Positions 15,089 through 44,592 of a stretch of DNA of 64,000 nucleotides are shown piece by piece. The position numbers and the translations under genes were made by a program. Source of the stretch: an uncultured Pirellulaceae bacterium (GTDB lineage Bacteria > Planctomycetota > Planctomycetia > Pirellulales > Pirellulaceae); contig CALJOA010000006.1 in assembly GCA_937981585.1 (NCBI GenBank), positions 1-64,000 of the forward strand. Reading direction: 5' to 3'. Every line of letters begins with the position of its first letter. Position 1 is the stretch's first letter. Below the pieces are notes generated by a model that was not told the DNA's origin, searched no databases, and saw only the letters and a program-made list of their open reading frames with translations.

Positions 15089-17272
15089 CTACAGCCCGTG
15101 AGTTCGGAAGTTGTTTTCTCTGATGAAGCGAATAAGATTGTTCGCCAGATAGCCTCCCATGTTTTGATCGCGGCTACGGACGATCAATTGGCCGGTCTGA
15201 CCGGCGACGAGTGTTTCCCGATCAAATGGTTCGAGTTCGATTTCGACTGGAACTCGCGGTTGGGCCAGCATCATTTCATCTTCTTTGTCGCTATTGCCAT
15301 CGCTCTCGACCTGTGACCTTGGCACAACCGCCAACGGTCCGCCAATCGAGGCGGCGAAGGCTTCGTGAGGAAGGTCGTCGCGGGCACGTGGGTTGATATG
15401 CTTGACCCGTCCTTTCAACAATTCGGATTGATGACGTCCCCAAATTCGAAGTTCAATCTCCGACTCCGGATTTTGGGCGACCCATTCGATGTCGTTTTGT
15501 CTGGTCAATGCGATTGCGTGAATCTCACCGGGTTTGGCGATCGAAAGAATCTCATCGCCCGGCTCAAGGTGTTTGCCGGCATTGGATTCAAGATCTCTGG
15601 CCAGCACGTTGCCCGTAGCGGGGGCGTAAATGTTCAGTTCTGCAAGTCGTTGGCGAAGTTCAGTGTGGCGTTTTCTCATGGACAACAATGACTGCTCTTC
15701 CAGTTGGGCTTGGCTGATTTCGCCTTGGTTGTAGAAAGTGTTGTAGCGCAGTTCAGAGATGCTGATGTCGACTTTCAACGACTTTAGTTCATGCTTCAGT
15801 TCCGGATTGGTCAACGAGATCAGGATCTCGCCTTCGTTGACGGCTTCGCCATCGCGGACGTGAATCTTTTCAATAAACCCATTCGATTTGGAACGTACAA
15901 CGTGAAGTGGTTCGTAGTCGATAACAACCGGCGCCGATACGACTGAGGGGCTTGGGCAGAAGTAGAAGAAACATCCGGCCAACAGGAGAGTTAGCATCAT
16001 GGCGTTGGCAAACCAAATCCGATTGGGCCGTTCGGTTTTTGTTCCGACGGCAAGATATTTTGAGAGCTTGTAAAGCGGAATTCCGGCCCACATGATCATG
16101 CCGATCATCGCCACCATGAGACCGAAGCCTTCAATGAAGCTAGAGGCGGCCAGTGAAAGTCCGATTGCAATTGTAAAGAACCAACCCATCGCGAGGATGC
16201 CATAAATTCGGACGGCCAACGCTCGGAAACCCGTCTCCTTGAGCTTTTCAGCTTTGTTTCCAAAGTACGCCCGTTTGAATGCGCCCTTGAGCCAACTTTT
16301 TCCGTGTGTTGCAAGGTTGGGAATTTCGAGCCAGTCGGCCAGCATGTAGTAGCCGTCGAATCGCATCAGCGGATTGATATTGAAAAGCAGCGTGTGCAGC
16401 GTTGCTGAGATAATGACGTTGCCGGCATGGTATTGAAGCGGTCCTGGCCCGCTGTTAGCCCAAACCCAACATGCAATCGCGGCGATGAAGACTTCGCACA
16501 TCATGCCTGCTGCCGATGTCAAAATTCTTTTCCACTTGTTATCAAATCGCCACGAACTGGTGACGTCGACGTATGGCATCGGGATCATTAGAAGCAGTAG
16601 GATGCCGCAGGACTGGACTCGGCCTCCGAATCTCTTGCAAACCACAGAGTGGGCGAGCTCGTGTGCCAGTTTTAGAACAATCCAGGTTACTGCGATCCAG
16701 ACGATGTCCATTGCGCCAAACGAGTTGACGCGGTTGGCATAAAACGCATCCCAGTTCTGAGCCAATTGCAAAAAGCCGTAAATACAGACGGTGATCCAGA
16801 CGACCGCACCGATGGGGCTAACCAGAAATCCGGTGAAGCGAGTAACTACGGACACGATTGGATCGGGGTTGAAAAGTGGCATTCGCATCATCATTGGATT
16901 GAGATACGAAACCATCTTTTGTTTTTGTTGCTGCTCATGTTGCTCAAGCCGGCGCGCCGTCGAGTTGCCGGTTTCGGAGTCGACCAGCCCTGATTCGATT
17001 GCCCATTTGCATAGGTTGGCGGCTTCGTTTTCATCAATTGCGTGCTCACGCAAGATCGTCGCCGACTTCATCATGGCAGTGCTAACGGTGCGATTGCCGT
17101 CGAGCATCGTTAGAAACGTGTACTGCGCTAATCCAACGCGAAAGAACCGCCCGGTGACTTCGTCTTCCACAAGGTAGTCAATCCCGTCTCCGCTTTGACG
17201 CATCTTGAAGCGCAGCGAGTCTTTGAGCTTGAGCCGGGCTTGGCTGAATTCAAATGTTTGTTCGTTTAACAT
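15089..17272 (-). CDS. PqqD-like / M50 site-2-type peptidase / HlyD-like fusion protein
   Basis: A 727-residue membrane protein and last gene of the export cluster. Residues about 12-98 resemble a PqqD-type fold (YLVEDEVTGRFFRVG, LDGNRTVS, helical end KWAIESGLV), the domain used as a RiPP recognition element. About 140-460 is a multi-helix M50 metalloprotease with HELAH at 204-208 and NINPLMRFDGYY at 298-309, supplying the zinc ligands (two His, one Asp). After a last helix near 435-455, an HlyD/lipoyl-type domain follows (NGFIEKIHVRDGEAVNEGE), then a short coiled coil, a returning lipoyl half (IYAPATGNVLARDLE) and beta barrel. M50 enzymes cut substrates within or near the membrane; here the adaptor domain would couple this to export. 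All active-site residues appear intact. Confidence 0.85.
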   Translation of the reverse strand: MLNEQTFEFSQARLKLKDSLRFKMRQSGDGIDYLVEDEVTGRFFRVGLAQYTFLTMLDGNRTVSTAMMKSATILREHAIDENEAANLCKWAIESGLVDSETGNSTARRLEQHEQQQKQKMVSYLNPMMMRMPLFNPDPIVSVVTRFTGFLVSPIGAVVWITVCIYGFLQLAQNWDAFYANRVNSFGAMDIVWIAVTWIVLKLAHELAHSVVCKRFGGRVQSCGILLLLMIPMPYVDVTSSWRFDNKWKRILTSAAGMMCEVFIAAIACWVWANSGPGPLQYHAGNVIISATLHTLLFNINPLMRFDGYYMLADWLEIPNLATHGKSWLKGAFKRAYFGNKAEKLKETGFRALAVRIYGILAMGWFFTIAIGLSLAASSFIEGFGLMVAMIGMIMWAGIPLYKLSKYLAVGTKTERPNRIWFANAMMLTLLLAGCFFYFCPSPSVVSAPVVIDYEPLHVVRSKSNGFIEKIHVRDGEAVNEGEILISLTNPELKHELKSLKVDISISELRYNTFYNQGEISQAQLEEQSLLSMRKRHTELRQRLAELNIYAPATGNVLARDLESNAGKHLEPGDEILSIAKPGEIHAIALTRQNDIEWVAQNPESEIELRIWGRHQSELLKGRVKHINPRARDDLPHEAFAASIGGPLAVVPRSQVESDGNSDKEDEMMLAQPRVPVEIELEPFDRETLVAGQTGQLIVRSRDQNMGGYLANNLIRFIRENNFRTHGL

Positions 17273-17280
17273 GCTTTATT

Positions 17281-17478
17281 GGAATGCGGAATGCGGAATG
17301 TGGAATGTGGAATGTGGAATGTGGAATGTGGAATGTGGAATGTGGAATGCGGAAGTTGGAAGTTGGAAGTTGGAAGTTGGAAGTTGGAAGTTGGAAGAGT
17401 TCGAGGGTTGGATCTAGTACTCAGTACCGTGTACCCAGTACGTGCATTCCCCATTCCGCATTCCACATTCCACATTGC
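17281..17478. repeat. Heptanucleotide tandem repeats with inverted partner block
   Basis: Ten consecutive GGAATGY heptamers (17281-17350) run straight into six GGAAGTT heptamers (17351-17392) plus a partial unit. After a spacer with three GTAC-containing words (17417-17442) comes a block of five units in the opposite orientation (GCATTCC, CCATTCC, GCATTCC, ACATTCC, ACATTGC; 17444-17478). The two GGAATGY blocks can pair into a long hairpin. The array fills the 208-base space between two genes of one operon and leaves both reading frames intact. It resembles the short tandemly repeated heptamers known from cyanobacteria. Confidence 0.9.
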
Positions 17479-17480
17479 CC

Positions 17481-19385
17481 CTACCACCACGTTAGTCGTG
17501 ATCTCACATAGTTGATTGGTTTGTGGAACAGGCTCCAGCCCAGCGATCTTTCTTCGCAGTCCAAACGCACACTACCTTTCATTCCAGGGCGAAGTCGTTC
17601 CTCTTCGTTACCGAACTCGACTTCTGCAATGAAAACGTTTTGAGCGTCGCGTGTCTCGCTGCGAGGATGGATCTTCTTGATCTCGCCTTTCAGAGGTTCG
17701 TCCTCTTGTCCGTCGATCCAGATTTTTGTGGGAAATCCGACTTTGACTTGAGCAATCTCGTCGCTGGGAATTGCGACTTCAACACGCATCGGTTTGACCG
17801 GACCGATTTCGAATAGAATCTGCCCCGTCGTCACCGAAGCCGCTTCGGCCCGTTCGAGTGAGCCACTAAGCACGATTCCATCGATCGGGCTTTTGATTTT
17901 CAAATTATCTCGCCGGTACTCCAGAATCTCTTCCTCTGAAATAAGTCGGTCAAACTCTAGCTCCGCCAGGATCGTCTTGGAAACGTTTCCTTCAGACAGC
18001 TCGATCTCTCGAGTTCTCAACGACTGCTCACGCTCAGCCGTGACGCCGTACAACTCCCAGTTGACCGTTCGCCCATCCATTTCAGCGAGAACTTGACCTG
18101 CGGAAACCAGATCGCCTGCCTCGACCAATCCGGTTTCGATCTGTCCCTCAAATGGGGCAACGGCGAACCGGCGCGAGACGGGTTCGGTGACACAGTTGCA
18201 ACGAACGCGATACGTGATCGGTAAGAACATCAACAGGACGAATCCGATAATCGCACCGAGAAGAAAAAGTTGTTTGGCGAGTGAGAGTTTTCGTTTAACG
18301 TACGATTTGGTCTTTGTCAGCGTCGTTTGTTTGATCTTGTCGACAACTCTTAGCGAACTGGCCAACGGTGGCGCGGCGGTTTCGGTAAACCTTCGAAACT
18401 GGCTTGAGGCGAGCGGACCTCGGTTGCCAGTGATGATGATGGCTCCGATCGTTACGTCGTTATCGTCAATCAACGGAAAGCTTGAAACCGATTCTGCTTG
18501 AACGGTGGCGGCAAGCTGCTTGTGAGCCTGAAGGAGGTAGTTGTTATTTCCGTCTTCTGTTGGAAAGAGCCCCGCCTGTTTTCGAGTCGCGCTTTCGACA
18601 AGTGCTTGAAGATAATCGCGGCTTGTATTGGATCCTCGGTCGAGCTTTCCGACTCCCGAGATCGCTTCCAACTGCATTCGATTCTTTTTGTACAAGCCAA
18701 TGGCAACGCTGTTACAGCCAAGCCGGTTGGCAAGCAGGTTAACAACCTCTTCGCAAGCGTCTTTGTTGGTTTCTTGATTCTCTACTTTGGCAACCAACTC
18801 GACGATCGCAGCGAGCGCTTTGACTTGCCAGTCGGCATCGGCCGAGTCGCGGCCGTTGAGCCAAAGCTGAATCGCCAACGCGACTTTTTGAGCCGTTTGG
18901 GCTGTCATCAACGCATCCTGCTGGGACTGAACCACCAAGAGCATGATTTCCGGATCGGAGTTCCTTGGGCGGATCGTCGCAAAAACGCCGAACATACCTT
19001 CCAGCGATTGTAGTGCAGCGGTTTGCACGGTGGATGACTTGGAGTATTCTTCACACTTTTCTGAGAACGCCTCAGCGAACTTGCGGCGTTCGGGAATCCG
19101 ACCGACCGTTGGTGCGGCAAGTGACGGAGTCCATAAATCCTGTTCGTTTCTGGCGAGGTAGCAAGCGCCTACGACCCCGGGGGAAGAAAGCGCCAACTGA
19201 ACGAACTTGGTCCGAATAACTTTCTCGTTGAAATTTCCCGAAACGACTTGCAAGATCTGCTGATCAACCGTTTGCCCAAGCGTCAACGGCGCTCGACCTC
19301 CCTTGTTGCCCGGTTTGAATCGCTGGTGCATCGCCAGCTTGCTAGGCGATCGCGATGTCTGTGGGGTTGGTGGGATGGTGCTCAT
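17481..19385 (-). CDS. GAF-domain HlyD-family periplasmic adaptor
   Basis: A 634-residue inner-membrane adaptor and fourth gene of the export cluster. The N-terminal half is cytoplasmic. Residues about 40-175 look like a degenerate GAF-type fold, and about 205-345 a clearer GAF domain (RLGCNSVAIGLYK, SSFPLIDDNDVTIGAIIITG). A single membrane helix (371-391) follows. The periplasmic part is a lipoyl/HlyD module (AVAPFEGQIETGLVEAGD), a short coiled hairpin, the returning half (IKSPIDGIVLSGSLE) and a beta-barrel domain. GAF domains bind small ligands or mediate dimers, so the export device may be gated from the cytoplasm. The ATG start lies 66 bases after the preceding HlyD gene. Overall architecture is confident; the ligand is unknown. 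Confidence 0.85.
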   Translation of the reverse strand: MSTIPPTPQTSRSPSKLAMHQRFKPGNKGGRAPLTLGQTVDQQILQVVSGNFNEKVIRTKFVQLALSSPGVVGACYLARNEQDLWTPSLAAPTVGRIPERRKFAEAFSEKCEEYSKSSTVQTAALQSLEGMFGVFATIRPRNSDPEIMLLVVQSQQDALMTAQTAQKVALAIQLWLNGRDSADADWQVKALAAIVELVAKVENQETNKDACEEVVNLLANRLGCNSVAIGLYKKNRMQLEAISGVGKLDRGSNTSRDYLQALVESATRKQAGLFPTEDGNNNYLLQAHKQLAATVQAESVSSFPLIDDNDVTIGAIIITGNRGPLASSQFRRFTETAAPPLASSLRVVDKIKQTTLTKTKSYVKRKLSLAKQLFLLGAIIGFVLLMFLPITYRVRCNCVTEPVSRRFAVAPFEGQIETGLVEAGDLVSAGQVLAEMDGRTVNWELYGVTAEREQSLRTREIELSEGNVSKTILAELEFDRLISEEEILEYRRDNLKIKSPIDGIVLSGSLERAEAASVTTGQILFEIGPVKPMRVEVAIPSDEIAQVKVGFPTKIWIDGQEDEPLKGEIKKIHPRSETRDAQNVFIAEVEFGNEEERLRPGMKGSVRLDCEERSLGWSLFHKPINYVRSRLTWW

Positions 19386-19451: not shown

Positions 19452-20342
19452 TTAGCGTCGAAAATTCCTATTGGGCTCGACACCCAACGCTTCTCTAGTA
19501 AGCGACGGATCTTCATCCCAGAAACAAATAATGCCGCTTTGGATCTGCAGGTCCTTATTATCAATCTTGGCATCGAGTCGTCCCAATCCGCTATCGGGGT
19601 CAATGATGGGAGAAACATACGTGACAGTGGCCAGACGTGGTGATTTATCTTCACCGATTAGAACAGTCACCGAGTCGCCAACTTTGGTGGTTTCAAGCGT
19701 CGTTGAATCGAGGTAGAAACGGACTTTTAGTTCATCGACACGAACAACAGTTGCGTACTGCGGTTCATTGTTGGAGATGTTCTCTCCCAACTGTTTGTGC
19801 AACTCAGTTACGAATCCGTTGATCGGGCTGGTGATAATTCGGTCTTTGATCTGAGCCCGGATCCGTTCGACTTCCAGTTTGTTAAGCTTGATTTCATCCT
19901 GTGCAGTTCGCAGCTCTGCATAGGCGGTCTGATGCTCAGCTTGTTTTTGCTCGACCTCAAACTTGTTGGTGTGGCCGCCAGTGACCAAAGACTCGATCGC
20001 TTCGAGCTGTGATTTGATAAGCTCGAGTTGAGACGTCGCAGCATCTAGCCGCGCGGTGGACTCTGCCCGTGCGATGGCAATCGCCAGTGATTCTTGTAGA
20101 ACGCTCTGGTTGATGGCAGCCAGGCGATCGCCGACTCGAACACGATCGCCTTCTTTGACAAACGCTTCGGCGATGATGCCGATTTCCGGGCTAGCGGCAA
20201 CGCTTTTTTCAATCGGCTCCGTAAAGCTTTTGGTGATCTGCCCGTTGTGCAGATGTTGTTTTTGATGCAGCGGCAATTGAGCAAACGCAACGTTTGCGTG
20301 CATGGCAACGGCCATCGTGACGAGCGTAAGGTAAGTCTTCAT
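19452..20342 (-). CDS. HlyD-type periplasmic adaptor (membrane fusion protein)
   Basis: A 296-residue adaptor and third gene of the export cluster. A signal peptide (MKTYLTLVTMAVAMHANVAF, cleaved near AQLP) replaces the usual membrane helix. A lipoyl half (AEAFVKEGDRVRVGDRL) leads into a coiled-coil hairpin of about 90 residues (Glu, Gln and Lys rich), then the second lipoyl half (ITSPINGFVTELHKQLGE) and a beta-barrel segment. The C-terminus is short. I choose ATG 20342 rather than TTG 20357 because it fits the signal peptide. Adaptors of this type bridge an inner-membrane motor to a TolC channel. The gene lies 42 bases after the SecA-like gene. Confidence 0.85.
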   Translation of the reverse strand: MKTYLTLVTMAVAMHANVAFAQLPLHQKQHLHNGQITKSFTEPIEKSVAASPEIGIIAEAFVKEGDRVRVGDRLAAINQSVLQESLAIAIARAESTARLDAATSQLELIKSQLEAIESLVTGGHTNKFEVEQKQAEHQTAYAELRTAQDEIKLNKLEVERIRAQIKDRIITSPINGFVTELHKQLGENISNNEPQYATVVRVDELKVRFYLDSTTLETTKVGDSVTVLIGEDKSPRLATVTYVSPIIDPDSGLGRLDAKIDNKDLQIQSGIICFWDEDPSLTREALGVEPNRNFRR

Positions 20343-20384
20343 TGGAGAGTCAATCAAAATAGGTTTGTTTTGCGCTTTGTCTGC

Positions 20385-22325
20385 TTAGTCTTTTTCGATC
20401 GCTTCGCGAACTGAATCCATCCAGTAGTCGCGCAGAATCATGTCTTGACGTTGCTTGTAGTTGCGGGCTTCGATCGACGACTGTAGAGCCGACAGATCTT
20501 TTGAAAAGTTCCCTGCTTCCCCGTTTGTCTTGGCGCGTCGAGCAATTTGGCGGGTCAAGCTCGATTCGTTTTCGGTGAAAATGGCGTCCGTTGCTGCCGC
20601 GAAAAATTGCGCCGAACCGGGTTGCCCCTGACGTGCAGCGCGACCGACGAGCTGACGGTCAATGCGTTTGGAGCTGTTTGGGCTGACGCCAATGACGTGC
20701 AAGCCGCCGGCGGCGAGTGCTTCTTGAGGCAGTTTGATGTCGGTGCCCCGCCCCGCCATGTTGGTTGCGATGGTGATCGATCCAAGCTGGCCGGCAAGCG
20801 AAACAATTTCGGCTTCATCCTGATCCTGAACGCCGTTGAGTAGCGTTGGATCCAAGCCCTTGGCGATCAGGGCTTCTTGGACTTCGATACTCTCGCGAAT
20901 CGTTTTGGTTCCAACCAGCACCGGTTGACCTGTAACGTGTCGGTTGCAAACGTCATCGGCGATCGCAGAGAGTTTTGATTCCAAGTCGGCAAAAAATCGA
21001 GTTTGCAGGATTCTTCGTTGGCTCTTTTTGTTGGTTGGAATCGCAATAATGGGACATTTGTAAACCGTTTCAAATTCTTTGCTTACCGAAAGCGCCGTTC
21101 CGGTCAGGCCTGCGAGCTGATCATACATCTGCAGATAGCGTTGACGTGTGATCTGAGTCGTTGACTCACGGCCAGGCTGAATCGGAAGGTTCTCTTTAGC
21201 TTCGACGGCTTGGTGCAATCCGTCTTGCCAGCTTCTATCCGGCAGAATGCGCCCCGTGTATTGATCAACGATTTGGACACTGTCATCGACGACAACATAG
21301 TCGATGTCTCGCTGGAAAATCCTTTCCGCTCGTACGGCGTTGCTGATGTAGATTCGCCACGGACGAGAGAGATTCAGATCTTTCTTGTCAGCGATTTCGT
21401 CATGAGCCAACTGGTTCGCTTCGTCGGTGACTTCTATTCTCTTGGCTGGAAACTCGATCGTATACTCGACGCCTTCCACGAATTTCGAAGCGATTTTTTT
21501 GGCGATAAGATAAGGAGTCGGGTCTTCGTAGTCTTTGGTTGGCAAGCTGATGACCAACGGCGTCATCGCTTCATCGATCATCACACTGTCGGCTTCGTCG
21601 ATCAGGGCAACGTGGTGATCGAGCGGCTGGATCAGTTTACGATATGGGTCCAAACCTCGAATTCGATTGAGTGTTCTGGTACCCAGCTCCGTCTGACGGT
21701 TGTCCCGCAAATACATTTGATCGCGCAGATAGTCGAATCCGTACTGATAACCCGGGCCATAAACGACTTGTTTTCGATAAACCGACCGACTGACGTTTTC
21801 ATTGCTTTCTTCTGGCAACAGTCCACTGCTGATGCCAAGTAAGTCGAACGTATCAGTAAGTTCTTCGAGGTCGCGCCGGGCGAGGTAGGTATTGGTAGTG
21901 CCGACATGAACCGAGGGCGCGTTGAGGGTTTTGATGGCGGCGATTGCTCCGGTGACGACGGTTTTGCCTTCGCCGGTTTGCATTTCAACCACATTGCCTG
22001 CTGCTCCAGCAGCAATCGCCAGAAGTTGCACGTCGTAAAGACGAAAACCTTTGGTGCGATAGATCGCCTCGGCTACGATTCCACAGAACTGGGGTGTTAA
22101 ACTCGGATCTTGCGATTCGGCCGCCAGCTCTCGGAGCCGGTCGGCTTGGGATAGTAGTTCGGCGTCTGTAAGCTTCCCAGTTTCGGATTCCGATTTACGG
22201 ATTTGCTTTGGCCAAGTTCGAAACGAACCCGCGCCACTACCACGAAGCTGGGCAAGCCGTTGGCGCAACCCACTGCGTCGATCTGTTGCGCTGCGTGTTG
22301 GAAGGGCTTGGGTTTGCGTTGTCAC
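20385..22325 (-). CDS. SecA-like ATPase lacking the C-terminal translocation domains
   Basis: Second gene of the export cluster, a SecA-family motor of about 646 residues (housekeeping SecA is usually 830-1000). Numbering from TTG 22331, Walker A is QTGEGKT (118-124) and Walker B is DEADSVMIDEA (245-255). The preprotein-crosslinking part ends in ILPDRSWQDGLHQAVEAKE (362-380). NBD2 has AGRGTDIKLP (526-535) and GRAARQGQPGS (563-573). The protein ends just after IEARNYKQRQD, the start of the helical scaffold, so the helical wing, two-helix finger and zinc SEC-C tail are absent. GAGGA lies 6 bases before GTG 22325, favouring that start. ATPase motifs look intact. A housekeeping SecA must be elsewhere in the genome. 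Confidence 0.88.
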   Translation of the reverse strand: MTTQTQALPTRSATDRRSGLRQRLAQLRGSGAGSFRTWPKQIRKSESETGKLTDAELLSQADRLRELAAESQDPSLTPQFCGIVAEAIYRTKGFRLYDVQLLAIAAGAAGNVVEMQTGEGKTVVTGAIAAIKTLNAPSVHVGTTNTYLARRDLEELTDTFDLLGISSGLLPEESNENVSRSVYRKQVVYGPGYQYGFDYLRDQMYLRDNRQTELGTRTLNRIRGLDPYRKLIQPLDHHVALIDEADSVMIDEAMTPLVISLPTKDYEDPTPYLIAKKIASKFVEGVEYTIEFPAKRIEVTDEANQLAHDEIADKKDLNLSRPWRIYISNAVRAERIFQRDIDYVVVDDSVQIVDQYTGRILPDRSWQDGLHQAVEAKENLPIQPGRESTTQITRQRYLQMYDQLAGLTGTALSVSKEFETVYKCPIIAIPTNKKSQRRILQTRFFADLESKLSAIADDVCNRHVTGQPVLVGTKTIRESIEVQEALIAKGLDPTLLNGVQDQDEAEIVSLAGQLGSITIATNMAGRGTDIKLPQEALAAGGLHVIGVSPNSSKRIDRQLVGRAARQGQPGSAQFFAAATDAIFTENESSLTRQIARRAKTNGEAGNFSKDLSALQSSIEARNYKQRQDMILRDYWMDSVREAIEKD

Positions 22326-22382
22326 TTTCAATCCTCGGGCATCAAAATCACGGGATCAGAATTGGCTTTTGATTCTCCAGTT

Positions 22383-24395
22383 CTATTTCCCAAAATAGTT
22401 GAGGTTGTCGTTGCCCTGAGGAGTGGCTGATGGGATGAAATGTTCTGAAACCGGATCGACCGGCAGGGAATTAACAGGCATAGTGGGAACAGAGTCAGTT
22501 GGCACGAACCCGTTGGCTGGTGCAGAAGCACCCGACTCGATCGGAGTCGCTTGGGTGGGTAGCTCCGACTCAACAAAACCTTGGTTGACAAAGTCCTGCT
22601 GCACGGTGCCTTCGTGAATAACGCCTTCATCAACGAATCCTTGGCTGCCTATCGCATCGGTTGATGGCCCCGACTTGTCGAGGTCGATCGTCTTGCAGCC
22701 GTTCTCACAGCCGATGTTTACGTTGACGTTTTCAGATTGCAGCAGCGTACCATTGGCACGCTTGAGGTTGATCATCGCCAAGTTGTAGGTCAGAACCGAA
22801 GTCATGTAGTCCCGCTCGCTGGCGGTGACGCGCTCTTGGGCTCGGAGTAATGACTCCAGATTCAAGGCTGCCGTTCCGTTTCCGTCGACCATCCGCATCC
22901 AGCGCTGTTCGATCGTGTTGGCTTCCGCTTCAGCTGCTGCGAGGGCTCGGCTTTTGGCACCAATTTCCAGATATGATGTATTGAGCTCTCGCACGGCTAT
23001 GTCGACTTCCGTCCGGACCGCCTCCAAGGCTCTGGCATATTCATCTTGCAGCCGTGCCAGTTCGTGTTGCCGACGGCAAAGTCTGGCTTTGGCTAGACGA
23101 TTTCCAACCGGCATCTCGTACTGAATACCTACAGAATAGCTCGGCCGTCCATTGGAAAACTGATCGGTGAACACACCGCCAAAGTCGTTGTCGCCCCGAA
23201 GTCCGTTGGCATATCCTTGGGTGACCAAGTTCAAAGCAGGCAATAGTTCGTGCTTCGCAATGCCCAATCTGGTTGACCCTGATTTGACTTGTTGAACAGC
23301 CGCCATGATCTCTGGGCGGTTCTGGATCGCTTTCTGAAGTTCGGACTGCAGGTCGGTTGAGTATTGATAGACTGTCGGAGTTTCCGCCGGAATAAGTTCG
23401 GCAAGATCGGAATTTGCCAACTCAGGAGCATTGATCAAGCCTCGAAGCCGAGTCTCGGCGTTGGTTACTGCTGTACGTGCGCGAATCAGATCAGCTCGTC
23501 GATTCTCAAGAGCACTTGAAGCCGTAATTAACTGGGTGCGTTGAGTGTCAACTCGCTGTCGAGCATCAAGTGTCTTGTAGATTTTTTCGGTCTTCAGGAA
23601 CAAACGCATTTGATGTGCTAACGCGGCTCGTTCCAAATACAGGGCCCAATACCCACGAGTTACTTCGAGGAGTTCATTTTGAAGCGTCGCCATGAACTCG
23701 TGCTCTGCTACTTCGGCGTCGACTCTGGCAAGAAACACTAGGCTGTTGTTGTAGGCTGCACCCCGACCGCGTAGCAGTGGATGTGTGTAGGAGACAGTAA
23801 ACTGGCCGGTGGCTTGGCGATCCGGAACCAGAAAGATCGAGTTGTTATCCTGCCAGCCAAACCTTTGAGAGATATCAAGAATTCCACCGTAACGAGTTAG
23901 TCGCCTGATACCCCCGGTACCCTGGAAAACCAAGTCGTTGAATCGAGATGCGGTTCCACCCGCGGTAAGCGTATTACCAATCGGCTCACTGGTATCGTTC
24001 CAAGCCGAATTCAAGTAACGAACCCAGTCGAAACTTGAATCAGCTTCTTGAATTGCTGTTTCACGGATCAACGGATCGCGTTTGGCAATCTTGATTTGGT
24101 TGGAGTGCTTGAGCGCCAAGTACAACAGTGAGTGAATGTCGGCTTCCAATGGCTGTTGAGAACGCAGCGAGTTGGTTACGTGCTGATCCCACCACGATGC
24201 TACCAGCTCCCTCTGGGAAGAAGCTGATGCTGCATCGAGCTTTTCAAAGACGGACGTGGCACTAAATTGTTTGAACTCGTCCTGTTGGGCTTCAGCAACT
24301 CCAAACAATGCGGTCGAGATGATGACTAATACGCTGATTCCAATCCAAGTTGACAAATGTGCCGGTCGAACACAATTAGCGGGAGATAAGGTCAT
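22383..24395 (-). CDS. TolC-family outer-membrane efflux/secretion channel
   Basis: First gene of the export cluster. A 670-residue outer-membrane factor with a signal peptide (cleaved about residue 36, VAEAQQ), an N-terminal extension, and two OEP-type helical-hairpin repeats: the first about 165-335, with KTLDARQRVDTQRTQL, and the second about 345-540, with RPEIMAAVQQVKSG and a long coiled stretch. A planctomycete-style C-terminal tail of about 115 residues is rich in Pro, Gln and Val and carries GFVDEG/GFVES-like repeats and two close Cys. TolC trimers form the exit duct of type I and RND systems. The gene precedes the SecA-like gene by 51 bases. Confidence 0.9.
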   Translation of the reverse strand: MTLSPANCVRPAHLSTWIGISVLVIISTALFGVAEAQQDEFKQFSATSVFEKLDAASASSQRELVASWWDQHVTNSLRSQQPLEADIHSLLYLALKHSNQIKIAKRDPLIRETAIQEADSSFDWVRYLNSAWNDTSEPIGNTLTAGGTASRFNDLVFQGTGGIRRLTRYGGILDISQRFGWQDNNSIFLVPDRQATGQFTVSYTHPLLRGRGAAYNNSLVFLARVDAEVAEHEFMATLQNELLEVTRGYWALYLERAALAHQMRLFLKTEKIYKTLDARQRVDTQRTQLITASSALENRRADLIRARTAVTNAETRLRGLINAPELANSDLAELIPAETPTVYQYSTDLQSELQKAIQNRPEIMAAVQQVKSGSTRLGIAKHELLPALNLVTQGYANGLRGDNDFGGVFTDQFSNGRPSYSVGIQYEMPVGNRLAKARLCRRQHELARLQDEYARALEAVRTEVDIAVRELNTSYLEIGAKSRALAAAEAEANTIEQRWMRMVDGNGTAALNLESLLRAQERVTASERDYMTSVLTYNLAMINLKRANGTLLQSENVNVNIGCENGCKTIDLDKSGPSTDAIGSQGFVDEGVIHEGTVQQDFVNQGFVESELPTQATPIESGASAPANGFVPTDSVPTMPVNSLPVDPVSEHFIPSATPQGNDNLNYFGK

Positions 24396-42159: not shown

Positions 42160-43161
42160 CGAGGAACTCCTTATTGTGCTGACTTGCCCAAAACTGGCAG
42201 CGTCTAAAATTGAATTCAATCTTCTGTCATACCCAAACGCATATTCGTTATCAGCGGTACGACGAGTGAACTCGTTACAACATCTGCCAATGTCATCGTC
42301 CTCAAAACCGGCACAATCGAACCGAAATCGGTGTCCCCAACCGAATTATCGTTGTGACCGTCGCCGTAAACGAAAAAACCGTTTCGGTTTACGCAGCCGT
42401 TAAAGCTTTCCAGTTCGATTATTTGGGCGCCAAGTCTGTGCAACCGGCAAAGTTTACCGGCGGAAGAAGCAAGGATGCTGCCGGTAATCAGTGGTTGGCA
42501 AAAGCGGCCTGTATGCATTCCCGTTCAAACAAAGCCAAAACGAAGCTCCAAACGAAGCTGAAACAATCGAAGCGAAGTGAATAAACGGCTTCTAGATCAC
42601 TGGCGGCAAATTTGGGAATCGATTCTCGATGGGTGAAGATCGGTCCAGTTTGCGTGCTGAAAACTGCTGGCGCCAGTGCAATGTTGCAATCATGATATGA
42701 AGAGCGTACTAAGGCGATTGGCCGTCTCTTGGAGTCGAAGCACTTTAGATTCAAGCTCTCGATGGAGCGCTGGATAGGCCTCGGCTTGTTCGTCGACAAT
42801 TTCAAAGAGGCTGGTACGACTGGTACTGGCCCAGTTTGATAAATGCAATTGCAAGCTCGAAGCACAGGCGAGTGTGGTTCGCTATGTGGAATGTTTCGCG
42901 TTTAACGACCCTTTTAGCCCTAAAGCCATCGCTGGGCGCCTGACCCATTTTGTTTGACTTCCGGGCGTCATCAGCACAGCGGTGAAAGACTGAATGTTCT
43001 AATCGCTCGGCTCGATAATGGCTATTATCGTGACAGTGGTCTAGTATAATAACCTTCCTCTTGATTTCTTCTAGCCGCCGCATCTCTTCTTTCCGCTTGG
43101 CAGCACGGTAGGTTCGAAACCTCATTTCACCAACCTATAACAACACTTGATGGGCTCGCAC
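42160..43161. other. 1 kb region without a convincing gene
   Basis: Three overlapping minus-strand frames of 100-125 codons cover this gap, but none has a recognisable domain, signal peptide or plausible ribosome site, and their composition is uneven. I see no repeat, RNA gene or mobile-element trace. It may hold promoters for the divergent outer-membrane protein and calcium-binding repeat genes, or decayed sequence. Confidence 0.4.
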
Positions 43162-44592
43162 ATGAAACGAAAAACTAAAAAACGGTTGGACTATAGCGCT
43201 TTGGAGCAGCGGCAAATGCTGGCTACTGTTTCGTTCGAATTTATTACCGGCGACTTCGATGCGATCGGGGCAATTATCGAAGGGACTCAGGCTGACGACA
43301 CGCTGGTCATCGACGCGTTCGAGGATGGAGTACAGGTATGGGATGGTACAAATGTAACCTTTACGCCTGTGCCGACTTTGCAAGTCGGTGACTTTTTTGA
43401 AGATGACGCTATCACGGCCATCAGGGTAAATACGTTTGGTGGTAACGACGTAGTCGTAATCGAGTACCACGATAGCTTTGTTCTGGAGGACCGCTTGTTT
43501 GATGGCAGGGTTGCTCAGACGATCGTTTCGCTTGGAAGTGGTGATGACTTATTTATTGAGAAAAACGCCAGTTTTGGGACGCGTGTTAGTGGAGGAGATG
43601 GAAATGATCGAATCGTATTTCAAGGAAACGAAGACAACGGGCTGGATTTCCCAAGTGCGGCGGAACTTCGCGTCGGAACCGGGCGTAGTCGATCGGCTTT
43701 TGGGGGTGATGGAAACGACACGATTATTTCGCTCAACGCCAACGGATTTTTTGATGGGGGCGAAGGCAACGATCGAATCGTGAGCTCAAAGTACGATGAT
43801 ATCGTTGAAGGAGAAGAGGGAGATGATTTCATTTCCTCTGGTGAAGGAGATGACTTCGTTTTGGGAGGAGAAGGAGACGATCTGATTTTCGCTGGAGACG
43901 GTGACGACTCAGTTTTCGGTGCAGATCGTATCACGCCTGCCGATGAACCCGCGTTCTCGGACAACGATACTTTGGTCGGTGGAGACGGAGACGACCAACT
44001 GATCGGTGAGTGGGGAGCGGACGTTATTTTTGGCGGGTTGGGTGCCGATACAGCCAACGGAGGCGGTGGTGATGACCAGATTTTTGGTCAGCAAGGAGAA
44101 GACACACTGGGCGGCGGCGATGGCGATGATCTCCTCAACGGCGGTGGCGAAGCGGATTTCCTGAGCGGCCAAGATGGTAACGATGTGCTGATCGGTGTCA
44201 GTGGCAATGATCGGCTGTTTGGTGGTAACGGCGATGACCGGCTTCATGGTATGGGGGGAGCGGACCGGCTTGTTGGCGGCGGGGGGAATGATCGGCTCTT
44301 TGGTGACCAGGGCAACGATGTAATATCTGGTTCAGGAGGCAACGATTTTATCATCGGCGGAATCGGTAACGATACGCTTGACGGCGGTGGCGGCAACGAC
44401 GAAATATATGGCTCCTCGGGCGCGGATATTTTGAGGGGCACCAGTGGAATCGACATGCTTTTTGGTGGTACCGAAAACGATACGTTGAGAGGCGCGTCGG
44501 GTCAGTCGAGACTCATCGGCGGGCTGGGAAGTGATATCTTCGAGGGCATCGGCCTGTTTGTTGATTTGAACGACGAAGACGAGTTGGGCTAA
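43162..44592 (+). CDS. LEXRxxLA-tagged calcium-binding (RTX-like) repeat protein
   Basis: A 476-residue protein, probably surface or secreted. The N-terminus is basic and carries LEQRQMLA (residues 14-21), the planctomycete LEPR-XLL-type tag, in place of a normal signal peptide. After about 130 residues of beta-rich sequence, more than 20 glycine-aspartate nonapeptides of the GGxGxDxxx type follow (for example GGDGDDLLN, GGGGNDRLF, GGTENDTLR), which fold into a calcium-bound beta roll. There is no ABC-type exporter in the window. ATG 43150 is an alternative start. Confidence 0.88.
   Translation: MKRKTKKRLDYSALEQRQMLATVSFEFITGDFDAIGAIIEGTQADDTLVIDAFEDGVQVWDGTNVTFTPVPTLQVGDFFEDDAITAIRVNTFGGNDVVVIEYHDSFVLEDRLFDGRVAQTIVSLGSGDDLFIEKNASFGTRVSGGDGNDRIVFQGNEDNGLDFPSAAELRVGTGRSRSAFGGDGNDTIISLNANGFFDGGEGNDRIVSSKYDDIVEGEEGDDFISSGEGDDFVLGGEGDDLIFAGDGDDSVFGADRITPADEPAFSDNDTLVGGDGDDQLIGEWGADVIFGGLGADTANGGGGDDQIFGQQGEDTLGGGDGDDLLNGGGEADFLSGQDGNDVLIGVSGNDRLFGGNGDDRLHGMGGADRLVGGGGNDRLFGDQGNDVISGSGGNDFIIGGIGNDTLDGGGGNDEIYGSSGADILRGTSGIDMLFGGTENDTLRGASGQSRLIGGLGSDIFEGIGLFVDLNDEDELG

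Follow-up and report, generated by a model that had tools for sequence, protein, structure and literature searches.

A probable export locus built around a PqqD-M50-HlyD fusion

The window analyzed here, a 64,000-nucleotide stretch from the 3.5-Mb assembly of an uncultured Pirellulaceae bacterium, carries a genuine open reading frame (ORF) at 15089–17272 on the minus strand. It encodes a 727-aa protein in which a PqqD-like N-terminus (residues 1–101, encoded by 16970–17272) is joined to an M50 peptidase and a HlyD-type adaptor. Four partner genes lie upstream of it on the same strand. A Pfam check of this setting for the oxidative decarboxylase, aminotransferase and methyltransferase of a daptide cluster showed the five genes of the set on the fusion's strand to be export components. 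The features are as follows.

15089–17272, minus strand: PqqD-M50-HlyD fusion, 727 aa (Pfam, NCBIfam, AlphaFold model)
15383–15934, minus strand: HlyD/AcrA-type periplasmic adaptor domain, residues 447–630 (Pfam HlyD_D23, 5e-13; Foldseek)
16355–16357, minus strand: D306 in NPLMRFDGYY, third zinc-ligand candidate (conserved in 46 relatives)
16649–16663, minus strand: HELAH zinc-binding/catalytic motif of M50, residues 204–208 (conserved in 46 relatives)
16970–17239, minus strand: PqqD/RRE-like domain, residues ~12–101, predicted to bind a leader (family profiles, PDB profile, fold search)
17481–19385, minus strand: second adaptor with a GAF-like N-terminus and HlyD, 634 aa (Pfam HlyD_3, 7.8e-17)
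19452–20357, minus strand: third adaptor, HlyD family, 301 aa (Pfam HlyD_3, 2.4e-13)
20385–22331, minus strand: short SecA-like ATPase, 648 aa (Pfam SecA_DEAD, 2e-71; P-loop_SecA; SecA_PP_bind)
22383–24395, minus strand: TolC-type outer-membrane channel, 670 aa (Pfam OEP, 1.1e-19)

Pfam places Peptidase_M50 at residues 195–410 of the fusion. Residues H204, E205, H208 and D306 are invariant across 46 relatives from several phyla, with D306 at what we take to be the position of the LDG-type Asp of site-2 proteases. The AlphaFold model of the full-length protein (pLDDT 87.5) has long helices at residues 137–298 and 348–438. The M50 part combines an HExxH motif and a distal Asp in transmembrane helices, as a site-2 protease does, and the fusion to an M50 protease claimed in the first-pass annotation stands, the motif and D306 being intact in all 46 relatives. 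A Foldseek search with the full-length model revealed that the adaptor part resembles AcrA, MexA and MacA (E ~1e-11 for AcrA/MexA).

The GAF match in the 634-aa adaptor is below threshold (E = 0.015), and the GAF-HlyD gene adjoins the M50 gene in most loci. Between these two genes, 17280–17487 consists of 7-bp tandem repeats (TGGAATG, GGAAGTT, CATTCCA), which give rise to a spurious 85-aa ORF at 17254–17511. Pfam detected no ABC transporter gene in the window's operon, and no inner-membrane channel of the proposed exporter was identified.

The SecA-like protein shares the DEAD motor, the PPXD and the second RecA-like domain with SecA and SecA2 but, unlike them, is encoded together with the exporter and lacks the wing and the two-helix finger that contact SecY: Pfam gave no match to SecA_SW (wing/scaffold, two-helix finger) in its 648 residues. 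It aligns to B. subtilis SecA only as far as ~612 of 844 residues, keeping the motor domains and ending where the first scaffold helix of SecA ends. A canonical SecA is encoded at another place in the source genome; the genome's three short ones are each encoded next to a PqqD-M50-HlyD gene.

The set of TolC, SecA-like, HlyD, GAF-HlyD and PqqD-M50-HlyD genes recurs in Planctomycetota, Verrucomicrobiota and Pseudomonadota, and also in Desulfobacterota, Fibrobacterota, Elusimicrobiota and Spirochaetota. The SecA-like gene is missing next to the fusion genes of several clades and therefore may not encode a general motor. An apparent SecA-M50 fusion ORF (locus L308) was rejected, as its reading frame is not that of the protease gene and its beginning looks like out-of-frame sequence. 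The cluster is also present in records titled Akkermansia muciniphila (L086) and Candidatus Kuenenia stuttgartiensis (L104).

Fold and family of the N-terminal domain

Residues 1–101 as a single sequence matched no Pfam or NCBIfam family. A simple profile search alone would thus have spoken against the PqqD-like N-terminus proposed in the first-pass annotation, and tests at the level of the family were necessary. Relatives of the fusion were collected, and 75 homologous N-termini were aligned into a family profile. Pfam PqqD (PF05402) was matched by 25 of the 75 N-termini at E ≤ 0.01, with a best value of 1.7e-9. Against the PDB, the leading matches of the 75-sequence profile were PqqD 3g2b (E = 0.0036) and PqqD 5sxy (0.015), further ones being 5vrd and the lasso RRE TfuB1 (6jx3); these E-values are individually weak, yet the correct family ranks first.

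The AlphaFold model of the domain (pLDDT 88.9) consists of three strands followed by three helices, and proteins containing an RRE occupy Foldseek ranks 1–10 throughout. Superposition with VIA-align gave the best score for TbiB1 with its leader bound (Z 9.4, covering 87 of the 88 residues), the other values being 8.8 for TfuB1, 7.5 for MccB, 7.4 for PqqD and 6.3 for the PbtF RRE; unrelated winged-helix domains also reach Z 7–9. Conservation is highest in the third strand, beta3 (FFRVG), at 2.8 bits per column versus 1.2–2.2 in most other elements; beta3 is the strand on which RREs usually dock the leaders of RiPPs.

The model of the daptide intramembrane metalloprotease (NCBIfam NF041824, daptide_HExxH) matches residues 34–396 with 158 bits, which makes the protease and the greater part of the PqqD domain homologues of a known RRE-protease; against a cut-off of 300 bits, the fusion is a relative of this family and not a member. 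The epipeptide metalloprotease YydH/LiaK (NF058609) gave a weak match of 25 bits, covering the HExxH protease core only. The PqqD/RRE assignment of residues ~12–101 is settled for fold and family, not for function. It is carried by the PF05402 matches, the PDB profile, the model and the Foldseek ranks: the profile check failed for the window sequence alone and succeeded for the family of 75, and the confident model has the RRE fold as its best match rather than something else.

A leader motif on giant proteins and its association with the fusion

Giant ORFs beside the cluster share similar starts, such as LEPRVLFDAAP, LEDRVLFDGVP, LEPRLLFSATP and LEDRVLFEAAA. The commoner form corresponds to NCBIfam NF012209, LEPR-XLL (LEPR-8K), a 24-residue model; the proteins that bear this leader range in length from roughly 500 to 20,000 residues and have cadherin, Calx-beta, LapA or RTX repeats. 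The literature we searched, which left most subscription journals outside, contains passing mentions of LEPR-XLL and no function for it. The consensus over 42 NF012209 matches reads F-x-[L/I]-E-x-L-E-P-R-x-L-L-S-A, preceded by about 10–70 residues that form a hydrophilic and often basic stretch. None of the 42 has a hydrophobic run resembling a signal peptide (maximum 19-residue hydropathy of 1.44).

A broader form of the leader comprises a basic stretch followed by [F/L]-x-[L/I/F/V]-E-x-L-E-[P/D]-R-x-[L/F]-[L/F]-[S/D]-A. Within the first 120 residues, the leader motif occurs in 54 of the 941 non-system ORFs (≥150 aa) of the loci, compared with 0.27 after shuffling (300 rounds, maximum 2). Controls gave 1 of 730 in residues 121–240, 0 of 730 at C-termini and 0 of 514 in system genes. 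Since loci selected for LEPR supplied six of the 54 motif ORFs and two collections have a few loci in common, the excess is slightly inflated by choice, not created by it. The ORFs themselves stem from mechanical gene calling. The NF012209 cut-off of 17 bits was passed by five of seven cargo N-termini tested from outside the window, and the model matches the majority of candidate cargos from lineages other than planctomycetes, while planctomycete LEDR/LEER variants score below the cut-off. We extend the NF012209 concept to LEDRVLFDGVP, LEDRVLFEAAA and LEDRILYDASP. DUF4347 comes immediately after the leader in many cargo proteins of planctomycetes (e.g., L354, 1289–17911, minus strand).

Leader and fusion occur in the same genomes. 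Among 348 Pseudomonadota genomes, LEPR (counted at E ≤ 0.01) is present in 44, the fusion in 74, about one in five of those sampled, and both in 43. The fusion is thus carried by 43 of 44 LEPR-positive and by 31 of 304 LEPR-negative genomes (Fisher p = 1.2e-33; 5.7e-33 leaving out the genome used as the centre). The match in the sole LEPR-only genome is a 64-aa open frame (E = 0.0027); the 31 fusion-positive genomes yield no NF012209 match, and variant leaders lie beside the fusion gene of some carriers. In 145 Verrucomicrobiota genomes, LEPR was found in 14, the fusion in 30 and both in 11 (p = 1.3e-6). The 11 genomes with clear LEPR coincide exactly with the 11 top-scoring fusion carriers (bits >520), the three LEPR-only genomes are marginal, and 10 of the 19 remaining carriers have a variant leader near the protease gene, e.g., LEDRVLFEAAA. 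Genomes from assorted phyla that had been reached via the fusion contain LEPR in 9 of 12 cases. Statistically, the leader is tied to the machine, and the shared N-terminal motif co-occurring with the cluster that the first-pass annotation had suggested looking for exists (the fusion is present in 43 of 44 LEPR-positive Pseudomonadota genomes).

The two are also neighbours: 47 of 138 fusion-holding loci also harbour an ORF that has the motif within residues 1–120. In Pseudomonadota, 22 giant LEPR ORFs (3,246–14,920 aa) are found upstream of the M50 gene, sharing its strand and contig, and 21 of them end 0.7–5.7 kb before it, usually with GAF-HlyD between giant and M50; other giant LEPR ORFs begin 0.2–3 kb downstream of the M50 gene. 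In a fast tree, leader subtypes follow protease clades, and Mantel correlations between leader and protein distances reached r = 0.49 for PqqD (0 of 2000 permutations), 0.50 for M50 and 0.43 for HlyD. As M50 reaches the same r and HlyD comes close to it, these values indicate co-descent only, not a specific contact.

In a Thiotrichales genome, a fusion gene (L315, 8090–12192) stands without its usual partners, and the LEPR giants are on other contigs. One genome (G000) has five divergent fusion paralogues (contigs C95, C43, C7, C102 and C84; L009–L013) accompanied by several distinct leader subtypes; these are possibly several parallel export lines, each with a private leader.

No LEPR gene lies beside the window cluster, and the candidate cargo is encoded on another contig. 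NF012209 is insensitive to the planctomycete variants of this genome, and a homologous cargo N-terminus was therefore used as the query. A 5541-aa protein on contig C28 of the same genome has the leader FFEKLEDRVLFDGVPD plus DUF4347 and carries cadherin, Calx-beta and LapA-type repeats; the leader of the candidate cargo matched to the window machine is SSFFEKLEDRVLFDGVPDA. Of 27 genomes of the genus, 11 encode a close orthologue of the window's fusion, and the N-terminus of the C28 protein was matched (E < 1e-50) in 10 of these 11 versus none of the other 16 (p = 1.3e-6, with a threshold chosen after a gap from 6.8e-52 to 5e-40 was visible). The one orthologue-bearing genome without such a match is the least complete (71%). 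Although not encoded next to the cluster, the C28 protein is in our view the most likely cargo of the window machine. The window itself encodes a possible further cargo.

43147–44589, plus strand: RTX-repeat protein, 481 aa; its N-terminus, YSALEQRQMLATV, looks like a leader (motif at residue 18)

This protein has 15 HemolysinCabind stretches and no NF012209 match. The N-terminal sequence YSALEQRQMLATV is similar to one more leader subtype, LExRQLLA, which other proteins of the source genome (contigs C46 and C29) carry as well.

A proposed route for giant surface proteins

We consider it probable that the PqqD-M50-HlyD protein is the inner-membrane part of a TolC-dependent exporter for giant surface proteins, the part that reads and removes their leader. 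The RRE fold, together with the co-occurrence with LEPR-tagged giants, suggests that the protein very probably reads and removes the tag during export. The cytoplasmic PqqD/RRE domain would likely grip the N-terminal leader of the giants via beta3, as RREs do with RiPP leaders, and the fused M50 site-2 protease would then likely cut it off. By the daptide register, the predicted cut falls directly after the R of LEPR (LExLEPR core). Judging from the protein families, the fused HlyD domain, the GAF-HlyD protein and the HlyD adaptor would connect to TolC, so that the chain could cross both membranes and exit through the channel. The shortened SecA-like ATPase may supply the energy in many lineages, this one included, a role that is uncertain because some clades have no such gene nearby. 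The first-pass annotation had proposed that a leader is recognised and then removed by the membrane protease; the RRE fold, the catalytic residues and the shared leader support this part as an inference. The peptide cargo it had deduced did not hold up, as the bearers of the leader are instead about 500 to 20,000 residues long.

The closest characterised relative is the daptide protease MpaP, an RRE fused N-terminally to a site-2 protease, which cleaves off leaders bearing the ELExMEAP motif (PMC10036551). MpaP/DapP (NF041824) and the fusion share an N-terminal RRE and an intramembrane M50 protease, with homology extending from residue 34 to 396. They differ in that the NF041824 match region lacks HlyD and that MpaP/DapP serve short modified peptides in a RiPP cluster, whereas the candidate substrates of the fusion are giants and its partners are TolC, adaptors and the SecA-like ATPase. 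The leader cores are also alike, L-E-x-M-E in daptides (PMC10036551) versus L-E-x-L-E on LEPR giants; this likeness is short and was noticed after the fact, and so supports the reading without proving it. With type 1 secretion (ABC + HlyD + TolC), the cluster shares HlyD-type adaptors, a TolC channel and repeat-adhesin cargo. In contrast to it, the signal is N-terminal instead of C-terminal, the inner-membrane part is the RRE-protease-adaptor fusion, and an ABC gene was not recognised among the conserved partners.

That the PqqD domain serves a small RiPP-like peptide, processed by M50 and exported, with the LEPR giants as unrelated neighbours, would agree with the known place of RREs in RiPP pathways and with MpaP, which acts on peptides. 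We nevertheless regard it as very improbable: no recurrent RiPP-modifying enzyme gene was seen beside the cluster, and the giants co-occur with the machine almost perfectly and match it by subtype within one genus. No recurrent RiPP precursor was found there among called ORFs of at least 40 aa either. An equally slight probability attaches to a shared lifestyle of large, surface-attached bacteria as the cause of the co-occurrence, with export by an ordinary ABC-type type 1 system. Giant repeat adhesins of other bacteria do use ABC-type systems, but gene adjacency, subtype pairing within a genus and co-occurrence at p = 1e-33 exceed what a common way of life would produce.

A less improbable but still unlikely alternative keeps the giants as cargo and places their recognition elsewhere, the PqqD domain being a structural or regulatory winged helix that, for example, binds the SecA-like ATPase. 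Such domains are versatile, unrelated ones match the model at Z 7–9, and the divergence of the leaders parallels not just that of PqqD but also those of M50 and HlyD. The best fold matches, however, are RREs with bound leader, the usual docking strand beta3 is the most conserved element, and the RRE-protease MpaP acts on leaders with a similar core motif. The leader-reading exporter is our preferred interpretation.

How this exporter should be classified is balanced. There is about an even chance that it is a distinct double-membrane system, in which an RRE-read LEPR leader, a site-2 cut, a SecA-like drive and a three-adaptor/TolC conduit operate without an ABC protein or a classical signal peptide; that such a system spans Planctomycetota, Verrucomicrobiota, Pseudomonadota, Desulfobacterota, Fibrobacterota, Elusimicrobiota and others seems equally balanced. 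For now, we file it under TolC-dependent export, as a variant coupled to an RRE-site-2-protease module, with the odds of a separate secretion system evenly divided. In the literature searched, from which most subscription journals were absent, we found no earlier description of PqqD + M50 + HlyD or of M50 + HlyD + SecA. A paper on polymorphic toxins (PMC3482391) contains nothing relevant to the cluster, and a 2025 structure-based survey of RREs (PMC12710340) mentions neither M50 nor HlyD nor secretion.

The proposal predicts leader binding, cleavage near LExLEPR and loss of the surface giants on deletion. NF012209 has been a name without a function, and we propose that it marks the leader of a dedicated export route. 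The LEPR-XLL motif, named by NCBI but unexplained and borne by some of the largest bacterial proteins, would thereby gain a function through a specific, mutable machine. The RRE domain, familiar from peptide natural products, would be extended into protein export, and the proposal suggests how giant adhesins that have no signal peptide may exit the cell in many Gram-negative lineages.
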